Shown one piece after another: positions 25,549 through 42,004 of a stretch of 42,184 nucleotides of DNA. The notes beneath the pieces are model-generated. The model saw only the letters and a program-made list of their open reading frames with translations. It was not told the DNA's origin and ran no database searches. This DNA comes from Candidatus Gastranaerophilales bacterium. GTDB lineage: Bacteria; Cyanobacteriota; Vampirovibrionia; Gastranaerophilales; Gastranaerophilaceae. The stretch covers positions 1 through 42,184 of the forward strand of contig CALVCA010000013.1 of NCBI GenBank assembly GCA_944325895.1, read 5' to 3'. The position numbers were made by a program, and so were the translations under genes. Numbering within the stretch: position 1 is the stretch's first letter; every line of letters begins with the position of its first letter.

Positions 25549-25608
25549 ATGAAAACAATTGAAGAATTAGCGGATAAGATGGTCGCCCCCCCCCTACAGC
25601 CTGCTTGA
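25549..25608 (+). CDS. 19-codon leader ORF with C9 tract, cassette 1
   Basis: Encodes MKTIEELADKMVAPPLQPA from an ATG with a strong RBS. Codons 13-16 span nine consecutive C (25586-25594). The stop TGA lies 11 bases after the tract. With one more C (or a -1 slip) the frame bypasses that stop and runs without interruption into the long prepilin ORF that starts nominally at the TTG at 25605. With eight C it stops at a TAG a little further on. Sequence after the tract differs from the other three cassettes, yet the frame relation is the same. It may be a regulatory leader peptide, or the true first codons of a phase-variable gene. Confidence 0.6.
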   Translation: MKTIEELADKMVAPPLQPA

Positions 25609-26684
25609 TTAGAGCCTTTCGGGCTGTTTTTGGTAGTTTATTTTACTCTATACATCATTTTGGACAAAAAAATTATTTTAATAAAGTTACTAAGGCATTA
25701 TGCCAAAATAACTTTTTAACGAACTTATTCCACTCAACCCGTCATTCTGAGCGGAGCGAAGGTGCTACGCAGCGGATTTGGACAAGAGTGAGCGAAGCTA
25801 AACTCGTCCCGAAAACCACGCTTTTGCGAACTGTACAAATCCAAGACCGTAGACATACTGAGTTTTGCATAGCATTTCACGGCTGCAAGATCCTGAAACA
25901 AGTTCAGGATGACAGTGCTACGCACGTAGACACATTAGATTTTGCATTGTCTTCTACACGTCATTCTGAGCGGAGCGAAGAATCTCTTAATGAGATCCTT
26001 CGGCTGAAGCCTCAGGGTGCTACGCACGTAGGTATGTCTAACAACAATCGTCGTGCCGCCTTCACGCTCGCCGAGGTTCTTATCACCCTCGGGATTATTG
26101 GGGTTGTCGCTGCTTTGACTATCCCGACTTTAATTTCCAAATATCAGGATATTCAATTTAAAACCGCTTATAAAAAAGCTTTTTCCGATTTTAATCAAGT
26201 GCTTTTATACGCCATGGCAAATAATGAAATGCCTTACAGATCAAGCACCTTTAATCCAAATACAACTTCTAAAGAATTTGAAATGATAAAAGCCGGTTTT
26301 AAAGTCGCAAAAGAATGTGACAGCGATACGTTTTACGAATGCTGGGCTAAAGGTGACGCTATTTGCGGAGGTTCCGGAAACCCTGACGAGTGCCAACCAA
26401 AACCTGAAGCTTCTGTAAATCCATTTATTGATATATCGGGCAGAAGCTGGGGATCTTATGATAGCTCTGAAAATATTTTTATTGTTGATACTAATGGTTT
26501 ATCAGAACCAAATATGTTTGGTAAAGACAGGTGGATTTTTACTTTAGCTGATGAAAAAGGTCAAAGAGTATCTGTCGGATACCCTGTTCAAGTTAAACCT
26601 TACCGAAATACCGATATTACAACTGTAAACTCGCTCTGTAAACAACCGCCTTGTTATTATCATTCCTGGCTTTATAAAAAATAG
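25605..26684 (+). CDS. Type IV prepilin-like protein, cassette 1
   Basis: The open frame is 359 residues from a TTG. The recognisable prepilin begins at MSNNNRRAA/FTLAEVLITL (internal ATG at 26034), giving a normal nine-residue leader, E5 of the mature protein and a 20-odd-residue hydrophobic helix ending AALTIPTLI; the mature protein would be about 207 residues with Cys pairs in its globular part. The residue before the cleavage site is Ala, not the usual Gly. The upstream about 140 codons are built from palindromic repeat modules that remain open. The last 122 bases before the C-terminal codons (26507-26628) are identical to cassette 2. Likely a pseudopilin of a pilus or type II secretion-like machine, processed by a prepilin peptidase. 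Confidence 0.8.
   Translation: MIRAFRAVFGSLFYSIHHFGQKNYFNKVTKALCQNNFLTNLFHSTRHSERSEGATQRIWTRVSEAKLVPKTTLLRTVQIQDRRHTEFCIAFHGCKILKQVQDDSATHVDTLDFALSSTRHSERSEESLNEILRLKPQGATHVGMSNNNRRAAFTLAEVLITLGIIGVVAALTIPTLISKYQDIQFKTAYKKAFSDFNQVLLYAMANNEMPYRSSTFNPNTTSKEFEMIKAGFKVAKECDSDTFYECWAKGDAICGGSGNPDECQPKPEASVNPFIDISGRSWGSYDSSENIFIVDTNGLSEPNMFGKDRWIFTLADEKGQRVSVGYPVQVKPYRNTDITTVNSLCKQPPCYYHSWLYKK
25740..26031 (+). repeat. Palindromic repeat modules inside cassette 1
   Basis: Order: short CGTCATTCTGAG half-hairpin (25740), a 145-base module (25771-25915) nearly identical to 28716-28860, a palindrome CTACGCACGTAG (25918-25929), a second CGTCATTCTGAG hairpin (25959 onward) and another CTACGCACGTAG (26020-26031). 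All keep the reading frame open into the prepilin. Confidence 0.8.
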
Positions 26685-28331: not shown

Positions 28332-28391
28332 ATGAGAACGATTGAAATATCAGCGGATAAGATAGTCGCCCCCCCCCTGAAATTAACGTAG
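28332..28391 (+). CDS. 19-codon leader ORF with C9 tract, cassette 2
   Basis: Encodes MRTIEISADKIVAPPLKLT. The C9 tract is at 28369-28377 and the zero-frame stop TAG at 28389-28391. Loss of one C gives an immediate TGA; gain of one C opens the frame through the hairpin and second promoter to the ATG at 28460 and the prepilin. The distance from leader ATG to that ATG is 128 bases, identical in cassettes 2, 3 and 4. Confidence 0.6.
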   Translation: MRTIEISADKIVAPPLKLT

Positions 28392-28393
28392 CT

Positions 28394-28414
28394 AAATGCT
28401 TTCCGGCATTTTTT
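28394..28414 (+). terminator. Attenuator-like hairpin, cassette 2
   Basis: AAATGC-tttccg-GCATTT followed by TTT, directly after the leader stop. Cassettes 3 and 4 have the same element with one mismatch in the stem; cassette 1 has an unrelated AGCC/GGCT hairpin with a T run at the same place. Confidence 0.5.
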
Positions 28415-28421
28415 AAGTTTA

Positions 28422-28450
28422 TTGACTTCTTTTTTATTCCAAACTATAAT
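28422..28450 (+). promoter_or_regulatory. Cassette 2 second promoter P2
   Basis: TTGACT (28422-28427), 17 bases, consensus TATAAT (28445-28450). The predicted transcript start is only a few bases before the ATG at 28460, leaving almost no 5' untranslated region. Confidence 0.7.
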
Positions 28451-28459
28451 TCTAGTATT

Positions 28460-29548
28460 ATGAATTATAAAAGGGTGAATTGGGTTAAAAAAATAAAGGA
28501 CAACTTTTTTAACAAAGTTACTACGGCATTATGCCAAAATAACTTATTCCCTTATTTCCTAATTCCCTCATTCCCTTCCATCCGTCATTCTGAGCGGAGC
28601 GAAGGTGCTACGCACGTAGACACATTAGATTTTGCATTGTCTTCTACACGTCATTCTGAGCGTAGCGAAGAATCTTTTAATGAGATCCTTCGGCTAAAGC
28701 CTCAGGGTGCTACGCAGCGGATTTGTACAAGAGTGAGCGAAGCTAAACTCGTCCCGAAAACCACGCTTTTGCGAACTGTACAAATCCAAGACCGTAGACA
28801 TACTGAGTTTTGCATAGCATTTCACGGCTGCAAGATCCTGAAACAAGTTCAGGATGACAGTATTGTAAAGACATTTGACAAAAATCGTCGTGCTGCCTTC
28901 ACTTTGGCAGAGGTTCTAATCACCCTCGGGATTATCGGGGTTGTTGCCGCTTTAACTATTCCGACATTAATTTCCAAATATCAAGATATTCAATTTAAAA
29001 CCGCTTATAAAAAAGCTTTTTCCGATTTTAATCAAGTGCTTTTATCATCCATGGCAAACAATGAAATGCCTTATCGGACAAATCGATATGATTCAAATGC
29101 GACTGCTAAAGAATTTAAAATTATAAAAGCCGGCTTTAAAATTGCAAAAGAATGCAATAACGATACATTTTATGAATGCTGGGCTCAAGGTGATACTGTT
29201 TGCGGAGGTACCTGTTCCTCAGGTAATCCTGATGACGGCATAGATTTAGATAACGGAATGCCTCAACCATACAACTCGGGAAAGCCATTTATTGATATGT
29301 CAGGCAGAAGCTGGGTACCGTATTTTTATACCGAAAATATATATTTAGTTGACACTAACGGTTTAGCAAAACCAAATATGTTTGGTAAAGACAGGTGGAT
29401 TTTTACTTTAGCTGATGAAAAAGGTCAAAGAGTATCTGTCGGATACCCTGTTCAAGTTAAACCTTACCGAAATACCGATATTACAACTGTAAGCTCGTAC
29501 TGTAAACAACCGCCTTGTTATTATTATTCCTGGCTTTATAAAAAATAA
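28460..29548 (+). CDS. Type IV prepilin-like protein, cassette 2
   Basis: The open frame is 362 residues. The prepilin part (KTFDKNRRAA/FTLAEVLITL onward) is closely related to cassette 1, with the same Ala before the cleavage site. Unlike cassettes 1 and 3 there is no ATG at the expected place: ACA replaces it, and the nearest in-frame candidates (a GTG and a TTG in repeat modules, or the ATG at 28460) are far upstream. Either this protein is made with a long N-terminal extension encoded by repeats, or its short-form start has been lost. Its ORF ends four bases before the converging pilT gene. Confidence 0.75.
   Translation: MNYKRVNWVKKIKDNFFNKVTTALCQNNLFPYFLIPSFPSIRHSERSEGATHVDTLDFALSSTRHSERSEESFNEILRLKPQGATQRICTRVSEAKLVPKTTLLRTVQIQDRRHTEFCIAFHGCKILKQVQDDSIVKTFDKNRRAAFTLAEVLITLGIIGVVAALTIPTLISKYQDIQFKTAYKKAFSDFNQVLLSSMANNEMPYRTNRYDSNATAKEFKIIKAGFKIAKECNNDTFYECWAQGDTVCGGTCSSGNPDDGIDLDNGMPQPYNSGKPFIDMSGRSWVPYFYTENIYLVDTNGLAKPNMFGKDRWIFTLADEKGQRVSVGYPVQVKPYRNTDITTVSSYCKQPPCYYYSWLYKK
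28583..28860 (+). repeat. Palindromic repeat modules inside cassette 2
   Basis: The modules of cassette 1 occur in a different order: CGTCATTCTGAG half-hairpin (28583), CTACGCACGTAG (28608-28619), the CGTCATTCTGAG hairpin (28649 onward), then the 145-base module (28716-28860), which differs from 25771-25915 at one base that I can see. That module itself contains GGATTTGTACA and its complement, and a CCTGAA/TTCAGG hairpin. Confidence 0.8.
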
Positions 29549-36106: not shown

Positions 36107-36166
36107 ATGAAAAATATTGATTATAAAGCGGATAAAATAGTCGCCCCCCCCCTGAAATTAACGTAG
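36107..36166 (+). CDS. 19-codon leader ORF with C9 tract, cassette 3
   Basis: Encodes MKNIDYKADKIVAPPLKLT, identical to cassette 4. C9 tract at 36144-36152, stop TAG at 36164-36166. One extra C reads through 23 further codons without a stop to the ATG at 36235 of the prepilin ORF. Confidence 0.6.
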   Translation: MKNIDYKADKIVAPPLKLT

Positions 36167-36196
36167 CTGAACGCTTTCCGGCATTTTTTAAGTTTA

Positions 36197-36225
36197 TTGA
36201 CTTCTTTTTTATTCCAAACTATAAT
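36197..36225 (+). promoter_or_regulatory. Cassette 3 second promoter P2
   Basis: TTGACT (36197-36202), 17 bases, TATAAT (36220-36225), nine bases before the ATG at 36235. A weak hairpin with a T run (about 36168-36189) lies between the leader and this promoter. Confidence 0.7.
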
Positions 36226-36234
36226 TCTAGTATT

Positions 36235-37254
36235 ATGAATTATAAAAGGGTGAATTGGGTTGAAAAAATAAAGGGTAGATTTTTTAATAAAGTTACTATG
36301 GCATTATGCCAAAATAACTTATTAACGAACTTATTCCACACAACCCGTCATTCTGAGCAAAGCGGTGCTACGCAGCGGATTTGTACAAGAGTGAGCGAAG
36401 CGAAACTCGTCCCAGCGAGCAAAACCACGCTTTTGCGAGCCGTACAAATCCAAGACCATAGACACATTAATTTTGCATTGTCTTCTACACGTCATTCTGA
36501 GCGGTGCGAAGGTGCTACGCACGTAGGTATGTTTGACAAAAATCGTCGTGCTGCCTTCACGTTAGCCGAAATTCTAATCACCCTCGGGATTATCGGGGTT
36601 GTCGCTGCTTTGACTATCCCGACTTTGGTTAAAAACTACAGAATTAAAGTTTTAAAAACACGATACACGCAGACATATGCAATTCTATCAGAGGCAACCA
36701 TTAAAACTCGCATGGAACTTGGCGAAAATCTTTATGAAAACTGTTTTATAAACAACTCAATTAATTCCGTATTTAGCCGGAAATTCGAGGAAACTTTTTT
36801 AAAAAACTGTAATTACATTCAAAAATCTACAGAAGACTATACGATAACGAATTATACGGGCACACAATCCTATTCAACAACAGAGCAAGGTGATTCAGAC
36901 TATCCGGCACCGTTATATATGTTAAAAAACGGATCTTCGGTAGATATAAGAGTAAACGGCTCAACAATAAGAATATTTGCAGATACTAACGGACCGAAAT
37001 CAGGGCCAAACAGACTTGGCTATGATATTTTCCGATTTCATTTAAAAAATGACTTGTTAGCACCGGTAAAAATGTACAAAAAATATACATCCGAAGAAGA
37101 ATTGGAAGATGTACTATATCCTTTTGTTGATGGGTATCCATGCACCAAAGATTCGCCTCAAATTTTGAACGGAACAGGATGCAGCTGGTATGCACACCAC
37201 GATATGAATCCAGATGATGAAACCAAAGGTTATTGGGAAAGTCTAAAATTTTGA
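36235..37254 (+). CDS. Type IV prepilin-like protein, cassette 3
   Basis: The open frame is 339 residues; the recognisable prepilin starts at MFDKNRRAA/FTLAEILITL (ATG at 36529) and gives about 232 mature residues. The globular part differs completely from cassettes 1 and 2 (TYAILSEATIKTRMELGENLYE, then ADTNGPKSGPNRLGYDIFRF), retaining the D-x-N-G-x-K-x-P-N-x-x-G-x-D-x-F-x-F pattern common to these pseudopilins. Upstream codons are again repeat modules in frame. The stop is about 35 bases before spmA. Confidence 0.8.
   Translation: MNYKRVNWVEKIKGRFFNKVTMALCQNNLLTNLFHTTRHSEQSGATQRICTRVSEAKLVPASKTTLLRAVQIQDHRHINFALSSTRHSERCEGATHVGMFDKNRRAAFTLAEILITLGIIGVVAALTIPTLVKNYRIKVLKTRYTQTYAILSEATIKTRMELGENLYENCFINNSINSVFSRKFEETFLKNCNYIQKSTEDYTITNYTGTQSYSTTEQGDSDYPAPLYMLKNGSSVDIRVNGSTIRIFADTNGPKSGPNRLGYDIFRFHLKNDLLAPVKMYKKYTSEEELEDVLYPFVDGYPCTKDSPQILNGTGCSWYAHHDMNPDDETKGYWESLKF
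36346..36526 (+). repeat. Palindromic repeat modules inside cassette 3
   Basis: Contains CGTCATTCTGAG at 36346 and 36490, a shortened hybrid of the 145-base module with a small in-frame insertion, and CTACGCACGTAG at 36515-36526 immediately before the prepilin ATG. Confidence 0.75.
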
Positions 37255-38817: not shown

Positions 38818-38866
38818 TTGACAAAAACAGGAAAATAATATTTAATTAAGAAAAAGGAGTTAAGAG
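38818..38866 (+). promoter_or_regulatory. Cassette 4 promoter P1 and RBS
   Basis: TTGACA (38818-38823), 17 bases, TTTAAT (38841-38846), then AAAAGGAGTTAAGAG before the leader ATG. Confidence 0.8.
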
Positions 38867-38926
38867 ATGAAAAATATTGATTATAAAGCGGATAAGATAG
38901 TCGCCCCCCCCCTGAAATTGACGTAG
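38867..38926 (+). CDS. 19-codon leader ORF with C9 tract, cassette 4
   Basis: Encodes MKNIDYKADKIVAPPLKLT. C9 tract at 38904-38912, stop TAG at 38924-38926. The +1 C frame is open to the ATG at 38995 as in cassettes 2 and 3. Confidence 0.6.
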   Translation: MKNIDYKADKIVAPPLKLT

Positions 38927-38956: not shown

Positions 38957-38985
38957 TTGACTTCTTTTTTATTCCAAACTATAAT
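38957..38985 (+). promoter_or_regulatory. Cassette 4 second promoter P2
   Basis: TTGACT (38957-38962), 17 bases, TATAAT (38980-38985), nine bases before the ATG at 38995. Confidence 0.7.
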
Positions 38986-38994
38986 TCTAGTATT

Positions 38995-39948
38995 ATGAAT
39001 TATAGAAAGATAAATAAGATTAAGGGACGGATTTTTAATAAAGTTACTAGGGCATTACACCAAAATAACTTATTAATGAACTTATTCCACACAACACGTC
39101 ATTCTGAGCGGAGCGAAGAATCTTTTAATGAGATTCTTCGGGCTAAAGCCCTCAGAATGACGAATACAAATATAACTACTTGCATAGCGTCACACCATAA
39201 TCACTTTTTAACGAACTTATTCCCTTATTCCCCGTCTAAAAAGAAAGCCGCTTTCACCCTTGCAGAGGTTCTTATCACCCTCGGAATTATTGGGGTTGTC
39301 GCTGCTTTGACTATACCGACTTTAACAGCGAATTATAAGAAAAAAGTACTTATAAACCAAAACAAACAGGCATATTCCTTAATAATAAATGCTTTAGATA
39401 GGACTAAAACAGACTCACAAACATATTCATATGATATATTTGCATCAGATAAAACAGTTGATGAAGTTACAGAACTTTTCAGTAAATATTTTAAAACCAC
39501 AGGTGAAGAAGTTGATAGCTATAAATATAAACAAATGCGACCGACTATAAATATAAGTGATGCCAATAAATATGATACAGGAAAAACATTTCCTCGAAAT
39601 AATTTCAGAACAACAAACGGTATGCTGGTCGGAATAACAAAATTTGATGGTTGCATACAACAGGCTGACAGATATGTCTACAACCCTGACGGTACCGTAG
39701 CAAGAGATGAAAATGGTATAGCAATAACAGAGTCATATGAAAGAGAAGCTTGTGCGGATATTATTATTGATGTTAACGGTGAAAAAGAGCCGAATCAGGC
39801 CGGCAAAGATATATTTAGATTTACAATTCAAAGAAACACATACGAAATCTCTAATACTTCTGCATACGGAAACATAAAATATATAATACAGCACAATGAC
39901 TTTGATCCAAATATTATTGATTATGAACTTGGCGGCGATAAAAGTTAA
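38995..39948 (+). CDS. Type IV prepilin-like protein, cassette 4
   Basis: The open frame is 317 residues. The prepilin core is SPSKKKAA/FTLAEVLITLGII, with a possible internal start at the ATG at 39157 (MTNTNITT). The mature part has KKKVLINQNKQAYSLIINALDRTKTDSQTY and a C-terminal DVNGEKEPNQAGKDIFRFTI, matching the pattern of cassette 3. Only one repeat hairpin lies upstream, and the frame is still open through it. It converges with the 156-residue membrane-anchored gene, overlapping by four bases. Confidence 0.8.
   Translation: MNYRKINKIKGRIFNKVTRALHQNNLLMNLFHTTRHSERSEESFNEILRAKALRMTNTNITTCIASHHNHFLTNLFPYSPSKKKAAFTLAEVLITLGIIGVVAALTIPTLTANYKKKVLINQNKQAYSLIINALDRTKTDSQTYSYDIFASDKTVDEVTELFSKYFKTTGEEVDSYKYKQMRPTINISDANKYDTGKTFPRNNFRTTNGMLVGITKFDGCIQQADRYVYNPDGTVARDENGIAITESYEREACADIIIDVNGEKEPNQAGKDIFRFTIQRNTYEISNTSAYGNIKYIIQHNDFDPNIIDYELGGDKS
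39097..39162 (+). repeat. Complete palindromic hairpin element in cassette 4
   Basis: CGTCATTCTGAG (39097-39108) pairs perfectly with CTCAGAATGACG (39151-39162), and inside it GAAGAATCT pairs with AGATTCTTC around a seven-base loop. This is the intact form of the element that is degraded in cassettes 1-3. It is inserted in frame: its translation reads RHSERSEESFNEILRAKALRMT. Confidence 0.9.
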
Positions 39949-41680: not shown

Positions 41681-41715
41681 AAAAAATTAGGAATGATAAA
41701 AGTCATTCCTAATTT
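41681..41715 (-). terminator. Second rRNA-type terminator
   Basis: AAATTAGGAATGA and TCATTCCTAATTT form a perfect 13-bp stem followed on the minus strand by a T run. It lies beside the partial 5S copy and mirrors the arrangement at 41846-41879. Confidence 0.85.
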
Positions 41716-41720
41716 AGATA

Positions 41721-41751
41721 CTGGCATCAGGCTATCTTCCCGGGCGGTGGC
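41721..41751 (-). pseudogene. Fragment of the 5S rRNA 3' end
   Basis: Thirty-one bases match 41890-41920 (the 5S rRNA 3' end) with two differences. The match breaks off at the palindrome CTACGCACGTAG, which is also found in the prepilin cassettes. It has its own terminator, so it looks like the leftover of a duplicated 5S gene. Confidence 0.85.
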
Positions 41752-41762
41752 TACGCACGTAG
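41751..41762. repeat. CTACGCACGTAG palindrome beside the 5S fragment
   Basis: This 12-base palindrome also occurs at 25918-25929, 26020-26031, 28608-28619 and 36515-36526. Here it is followed by AGACAC, as at 25929 and 28619, suggesting a shared mobile module end. Confidence 0.8.
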
Positions 41763-41845
41763 ACACGACGCCTTGAATTCTTGCTAAATAAACTCTACAG
41801 AATAAAATTATTAATCATTTTTTTATAATAAGATATTTTCTCACT

Positions 41846-41879
41846 AAAAAAGAGGAACAACTATTGTCATTCCTCTTTT
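41846..41879 (-). terminator. Terminator of the rRNA operon
   Basis: AAAAGAGGAA and TTCCTCTTTT form a stem followed on the minus strand by a T run, just after the 5S gene. Confidence 0.85.
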
Positions 41880-41887
41880 AAAATAGA

Positions 41888-42004
41888 TGCTGGCATCGGG
41901 CTATCTTCCCAGGCGGTGGCCCGCCAAGTATTTTCACTGAAATGAGTCTTTACGACCGTGTTCGGGATGGGAACGGGTGGTTTCCTCACTCTTGGACACC
42001 AGCG
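41888..42004 (-). rRNA. rrf: 5S ribosomal RNA
   Basis: About 117 bases on the minus strand. The terminal helix GCTGGTGTC/GATGCCAGC closes the molecule, and CCACCCGTTCCCATCCCGAA with the downstream GAACACGG is the universal 5S core. It follows the 23S gene after a spacer of about 108 bases. Confidence 0.93.

Follow-up and report, generated by a model that had tools for sequence, protein, structure and literature searches.

Dozens of pilus-subunit genes in a Candidatus Gastranaerophilales bacterium and in its sister species carry short palindromic repeats that are read in frame and lie in a protein segment expected to be cut off before assembly. We analysed a 42,184-nt stretch of this bacterium (contig CALVCA010000013.1 of assembly GCA_944325895.1; hereafter the window), in which four cassettes each encode a prepilin with a long leader upstream of the prepilin core, together with the rest of this genome (1.69 Mb in 47 contigs) and genomes of its relatives. 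PF07963 (N_methyl) is over its cut-off in all four window cassettes, each with the F-T-L-x-E site, and the genome has a single match to the prepilin peptidase domain Peptidase_A24 (PF01478). The features are listed in Table 1.

In-frame palindromes in prepilin leaders

Cassette 4 contains a 66-nt palindrome with two exact 12-nt arms, CGTCATTCTGAG at 39097-39108 and its reverse complement at 39151-39162; CGTC points outward at both ends, as in a head-to-head dimer. The RNA fold of the element (-34.5 kcal/mol, z -7.1, with no shuffle as good) pairs a 12-bp outer helix plus 2 further pairs and an inner helix of 11 bp, so that the outer stem of the original prediction holds whereas its inner stem of 9 bp does not. 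The element lies in frame within the open reading frame (ORF) at 38995-39948, and the N_methyl core match (start 39238) begins 76 nt downstream of it. The window contains 9 matches to CGTCATTCTGAG (8 exact), as compared to 1.45 expected. Copies in cassettes 1-3 had been described as in-frame but degraded or rearranged; they all keep the same frame and their neighbours are rearranged, but the heads themselves are exact. Cassettes 1 and 2 have repeat blocks in common, in differing order.

Genome-wide, CGTCATTCTGAG has 78 exact copies, and the reversed control pattern has none. Counted by context, as the original prediction had proposed, 41 copies are inside a stop-free prepilin frame, all upstream of the core and in the frame that reads RHSE (LRMT if reversed), 2 are in leaders cut by contig ends, and the remaining 35 are mostly intergenic, in repeat mosaics, or overlap short ORFs of doubtful status. 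The 29 run-bearing prepilins that were examined have no copy in their mature parts. Heads of this kind of repetitive extragenic palindrome (REP) number 50 in leaders vs 0 in the corresponding mature parts in this genome, and 9 vs 0 in the sister species G002. The open frame around a copy has a median of 362 aa in leaders vs 31 aa elsewhere. The in-frame palindromes thus do sit specifically in prepilin leaders, as claimed, but with 35 copies elsewhere the elements are general repeats that are enriched in leaders. By inspection, TGA codons close the other frames of the element and only one can be fully open, so the single-frame bias that had been put forward as informative is real but adds nothing beyond the openness of the leader, and the informative test is the openness of the leader as a whole.

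This test covered all prepilin cores preceded, at a distance of up to 700 nt, by a C or G run of length 8 or more, provided that 40 codons or more separate the two. In three species, 61 of 63 leaders are open in the frame of the core, vs 0 of 63 in either other frame; in a fourth species (G013) the corresponding numbers are 8 of 9, 0 and 0. The leaders are 50-200 codons long and are mosaics of CGTC-tagged REP-like elements. According to BLAST with mature parts masked, 64% of leader bases in this genome and 47% in G002 recur elsewhere in their genome, in DNA outside the prepilins, vs 19% of mature-part bases here and 0% in G002; pieces of prepilin genes that were missed by the masking probably inflate the 19%. 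Sister species have other repeat families at the equivalent position (RHPEAKPKDLKRFFATAQND, CHCEERSDVAIA, EILKQVQDD and NPLPLGEG), and G013 has both empty and filled leaders: locus L236 has TSLSSHRAGFGVFWSK followed directly by GFTLAEV, and loci L241 and L246 have TSLSSHRAGFGVFWSK, a repeat mosaic and then AAFTLAEV.

Leader amino acids drift near-neutrally (synonymous fraction 0.28 vs 0.23 expected in this genome, and 0.21 vs 0.23 in G002). Nearly free drift in a frame that is kept open is as expected for a disposable segment, and agrees with the earlier argument that residues removed by the peptidase would be tolerated. Gap lengths in leader alignments show no bias towards multiples of three, and gaps therefore give no support for selection on indels.

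Translation of the leaders

The repeats would be in frame by annotation alone if the leaders were untranslated, with translation starting at an ATG beside the core and the palindromes being repeats of the 5' untranslated region, and a warning that N-terminal REPs are often extragenic through misannotation has been published (PMC3733652). Among the 29 long run-bearing leaders of this genome, an ATG lies no more than 16 codons from the core in 15, none of these ATGs being preceded by a Shine-Dalgarno (SD) sequence, and the other 14 have no such ATG. No SD-preceded start was found inside any of these 29 leaders, 7 of which lack ATG altogether, and an SD-ATG precedes the run in every one of the 29. 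Intergenic copies of leader repeats have frequent stops in the prepilin-equivalent frame, and the leaders are open in one frame only. We consider untranslated leaders very unlikely; a sole start next to the core, which the original prediction had named as part of what would refute its idea, is thus improbable.

A homopolymer run that probably sets the frame

A strong SD and ATG precede a run of 8-13 C or G by 12-54 nt. An ATG with an SD score of 5-6 is found upstream of 87 of 89 runs (one in G003), vs 1.5% of random positions, and the length of the run sets the frame in which the prepilin is read. The C/G run near the start of most of these prepilin genes probably switches each of them on and off, a feature that the original prediction left out.

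Read from the upstream SD-ATG, the prepilin is in frame in 14 of 107 genes, one base short in 73 and one base long in 19, and the remaining gene lacks an ATG (the calls depend on the SD-ATG chosen); 14 of 107 is fewer than the one-third expected (p about 3e-6). In this genome, the C class would be in frame at C10 and is found at C9 (in all four window cassettes, among others), and the G class would be in frame at G9 and is found mostly at G10. Runs of G8-G13 and C8-C10 were seen, and paralogs whose flanks are nearly the same can have different lengths (CKSASRAEHSSLITPKVKSA-type leaders follow G10, G12 or G13); with one genome per species, this variation is among paralogs. In-frame, repeat-bearing genes include C3:100108 (open leader of about 200 codons) and C2:73019 in this genome; in a relative, locus L147 is in frame at C10 and the run-free L146 reads through. 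The exact run context pattern was found in this genome only, among 59 genomes searched, and looser run searches were therefore used.

A fixed share of full-length protein could instead arise by programmed -1 frameshifting on the ribosome, or by slippage during transcription, at C9/G9, making the one-base-short genes the expressed form, as the 73 genes that are exactly one base short and the almost uniform C9 of the C class in this genome might suggest. We consider this unlikely: 19 genes, including most of the G class (G10) in this genome, are off the other way, where a -1 shift gives no rescue, run lengths vary among paralogs with near-identical flanks, and in-frame and run-free homologues exist. 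Avoidance of the in-frame length in both the C and the G class is more readily explained by a repertoire that is largely silent than by programmed frameshifting.

A second feature that had been overlooked is a promoter embedded in the leader (TTGAC-17-TATAAT, with 6 or 9 nt from the -10 to an in-frame ATG), found in 18 leaders of this genome, 5 of G006, 4 of G002, and in L147. In cassette 4 (38957-38985) it matches 11 of 12 consensus bases. This sigma-70-like promoter with its close ATG suggests leaderless transcripts, and expression might come mainly from it, with the SD-ATG and the run being secondary. Such a scheme is doubtful, since the promoter is missing from many run-bearing leaders (cassette 1, 31 of 35 in G002 and all in G013), whereas the SD-ATG and run are near universal. 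As the palindromes would be translated even from the embedded start, it would alter the switch model and leave the in-frame model as it is.

Proposed explanation

We favour, with moderate confidence, a large phase-variable repertoire of prepilin-like genes, most of them likely contingency loci, whose disposable leaders collect in-frame palindromes. Slippage in the run, to which the differing run lengths point, would put the SD-ATG in or out of the prepilin frame. The leader, between run and core, would stay in the cytoplasm and be removed by the single prepilin peptidase at the conserved A/G^FTLAE site; because no part of it remains in the pilus, it would tolerate added residues. It is in the leader that repeats, CGTC-tagged REP-like palindromes among them, build up, and presumably they are tolerated if the reading frame stays free of stops. 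Their probable route of arrival is exchange, by recombination or gene conversion, between cassettes and with intergenic mosaics. The palindromes had been proposed to be selfish; their residence in frame stands, but such recombination could explain much of the spread, and selfish insertion is a possible further route. By inspection, the string TTAGCCGAAG is common to the repeat and the core, which suggests microhomology-driven recombination.

The repeat-built leaders might also be more than tolerated, providing homology shared across loci that shuffles prepilin heads and run switches in an antigenic-variation system, with the repeats kept as recombination drivers. We hold this to be a speculative idea with a modest chance of being right; it would mean antigenic variation of phase-variable prepilins in a gut relative of the Cyanobacteria.

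Several observations weigh against the explanation we favour. A sister genome of a fifth species (G003) breaks the rule, with 1 of 6 leaders open, and most of its sampled runs are unlinked to prepilins. The prepilin genes are paralogs of shared ancestry, and counts of leaders and runs are therefore non-independent. Just 14 of 107 genes are in frame, and the length of C-class runs in this genome (18 counted at C9) stays the same regardless of flanks. Two run-broken copies (C6:46952 and C16:24839) are locked out of frame with their leaders still open, and the embedded promoter with its ATG could bypass the run in 18 leaders. Structure prediction and search also did not confirm the pilin fold: the predicted structure is a long N-terminal helix followed by strands (mean predicted local distance difference test score 66), and PAK pilin is at rank 5 in Foldseek with a non-significant E of 0.73.

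Comparison with known systems

CGTC-tagged REPs were defined by Di Nocera et al. 2013, with RPE-4 and RPE-6 (Rickettsia palindromic elements) included; no dedicated transposase was reported, N-terminal copies may be misannotated, and the CGTC repeats were found in five phyla, with Cyanobacteria-like lineages not among them by name (PMC3733652). Our element resembles this superfamily in its CGTC tag, a stem starting with AT, head-to-head dimers, intergenic mosaics and intragenic copies (PMC3733652). Members have a CGTC, TGTC or CCTC end, an 8-9 bp stem, a 4-5 nt loop and a tail near CCA (PMC3733652), whereas the arms here are longer and interrupted, and the CCA tail was not seen in the copies inspected. 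As it departs from the stem, loop and tail rules, we call the element CGTC-like and do not assign it to families 1-4. The copies here are strongly concentrated in one gene family, which is not described for CGTC-tagged REPs in PMC3733652.

As far as the Rickettsia work (Ogata et al.) is described in PMC3733652, RPE-4 and RPE-6 are likewise palindromes that are read in frame within ORFs whose products probably are functional, and they also end in CGTC, like the 66-nt element. RPEs are in many unrelated genes, mature proteins included, whereas the in-frame copies here are confined to prepilin leaders, with none in mature parts. The contingency loci of Neisseria, Campylobacter and Helicobacter also have a 5' C/G run whose length sets the frame of surface proteins (PMC5084427, PMC4085013); unlike them, the present system involves dozens of prepilin genes, with the run before a long disposable leader. 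No paper on pilin phase variation in Gastranaerophilales was found in a literature search that was thin on subscription journals.

Most genus mates, with genomes of about 1.5-2.2 Mb, have 46-114 N_methyl matches per genome. Relative to genome size, the phase-variable surface repertoire that the prepilin genes seem to provide is very large, and the biology of this gut lineage is little known. In-frame palindromes are usually scattered in unrelated genes, so that the reason for their tolerance is hard to tell. A specific tolerated site, recurrence in four species with different repeat families, and empty and filled versions make it testable whether repeat DNA gathers in protein segments that are disposable.

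Features of the window and other observations

Table 1. Features of the four prepilin cassettes in the window.
Feature	Position	Strand	Details and basis
Cassette 1	25549..26684	+	SD-ATG 25549; C9 25586-25594; heads 25740, 25959; mature part from 26061
Cassette 2	28332..29548	+	SD-ATG 28332; C9 28369-28377; heads 28583, 28649
Cassette 3	36107..37254	+	SD-ATG 36107; C9 36144-36152; heads 36346, 36490; mature part from 36556
Cassette 4, outer promoter-like TTGACA-17-TTTAAT	38818..38846	+	read from sequence; block recurs before the other three cassettes
Cassette 4, Shine-Dalgarno AGGAG and ATG (38867)	38855..38869	+	sequence; SD score
Cassette 4, C9 run	38904..38912	+	ATG 38867 would match the prepilin frame at C10
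Cassette 4, embedded TTGACT-17-TATAAT with in-frame ATG (38995) 9 nt after	38957..38997	+	
Cassette 4, ORF from embedded ATG	38995..39948	+	mature prepilin from F at 39253; PF07963 over cut-off; translation
Cassette 4, 66-nt head-to-head CGTC-tagged palindrome	39097..39162	+	translated RHSERSEESFNEILRAKALRMT, prepilin frame; exact arms, fold, phase 0

Two homologues of cassette 4 (64-66% identical) are found in a Candidatus Gastranaerophilales metagenome-assembled genome. Several leaders contain a duplicated core start (AFTLAEGATHVG...AAFTLAEV). FTLAE core starts are duplicated with repeat DNA between them at C7:81904, C15:23996, C8:36179 and C22:20231 in this genome and at L151, L247 and L248, giving two possible peptidase cleavage sites per protein.

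In this genome, 33 of 36 runs of at least 8 C are on the contig + strand whichever the gene direction; G-run genes are on the - strand and C-run genes on the + strand, with other genomes being more even. GC skew gives weak support for a relation to run orientation. Three near-identical short-leader prepilins (MTKRFGFTLAEV; C4:6490, C4:19391 and C10:27067) have a G9 run about 215 nt upstream, outside any open frame with the core. The genus mate G003 (loci L178-L207) has 118 C-runs, mostly preceded by A, of which nearly all sampled ones are away from prepilins; these may belong to another switchable gene family. At 41710-41775 the window contains a stretch that is 88% identical to 41879-41920 (which we take to resemble the end of a 5S rRNA), fused to the repeat GTGGCTACGCACGTAGACAC.
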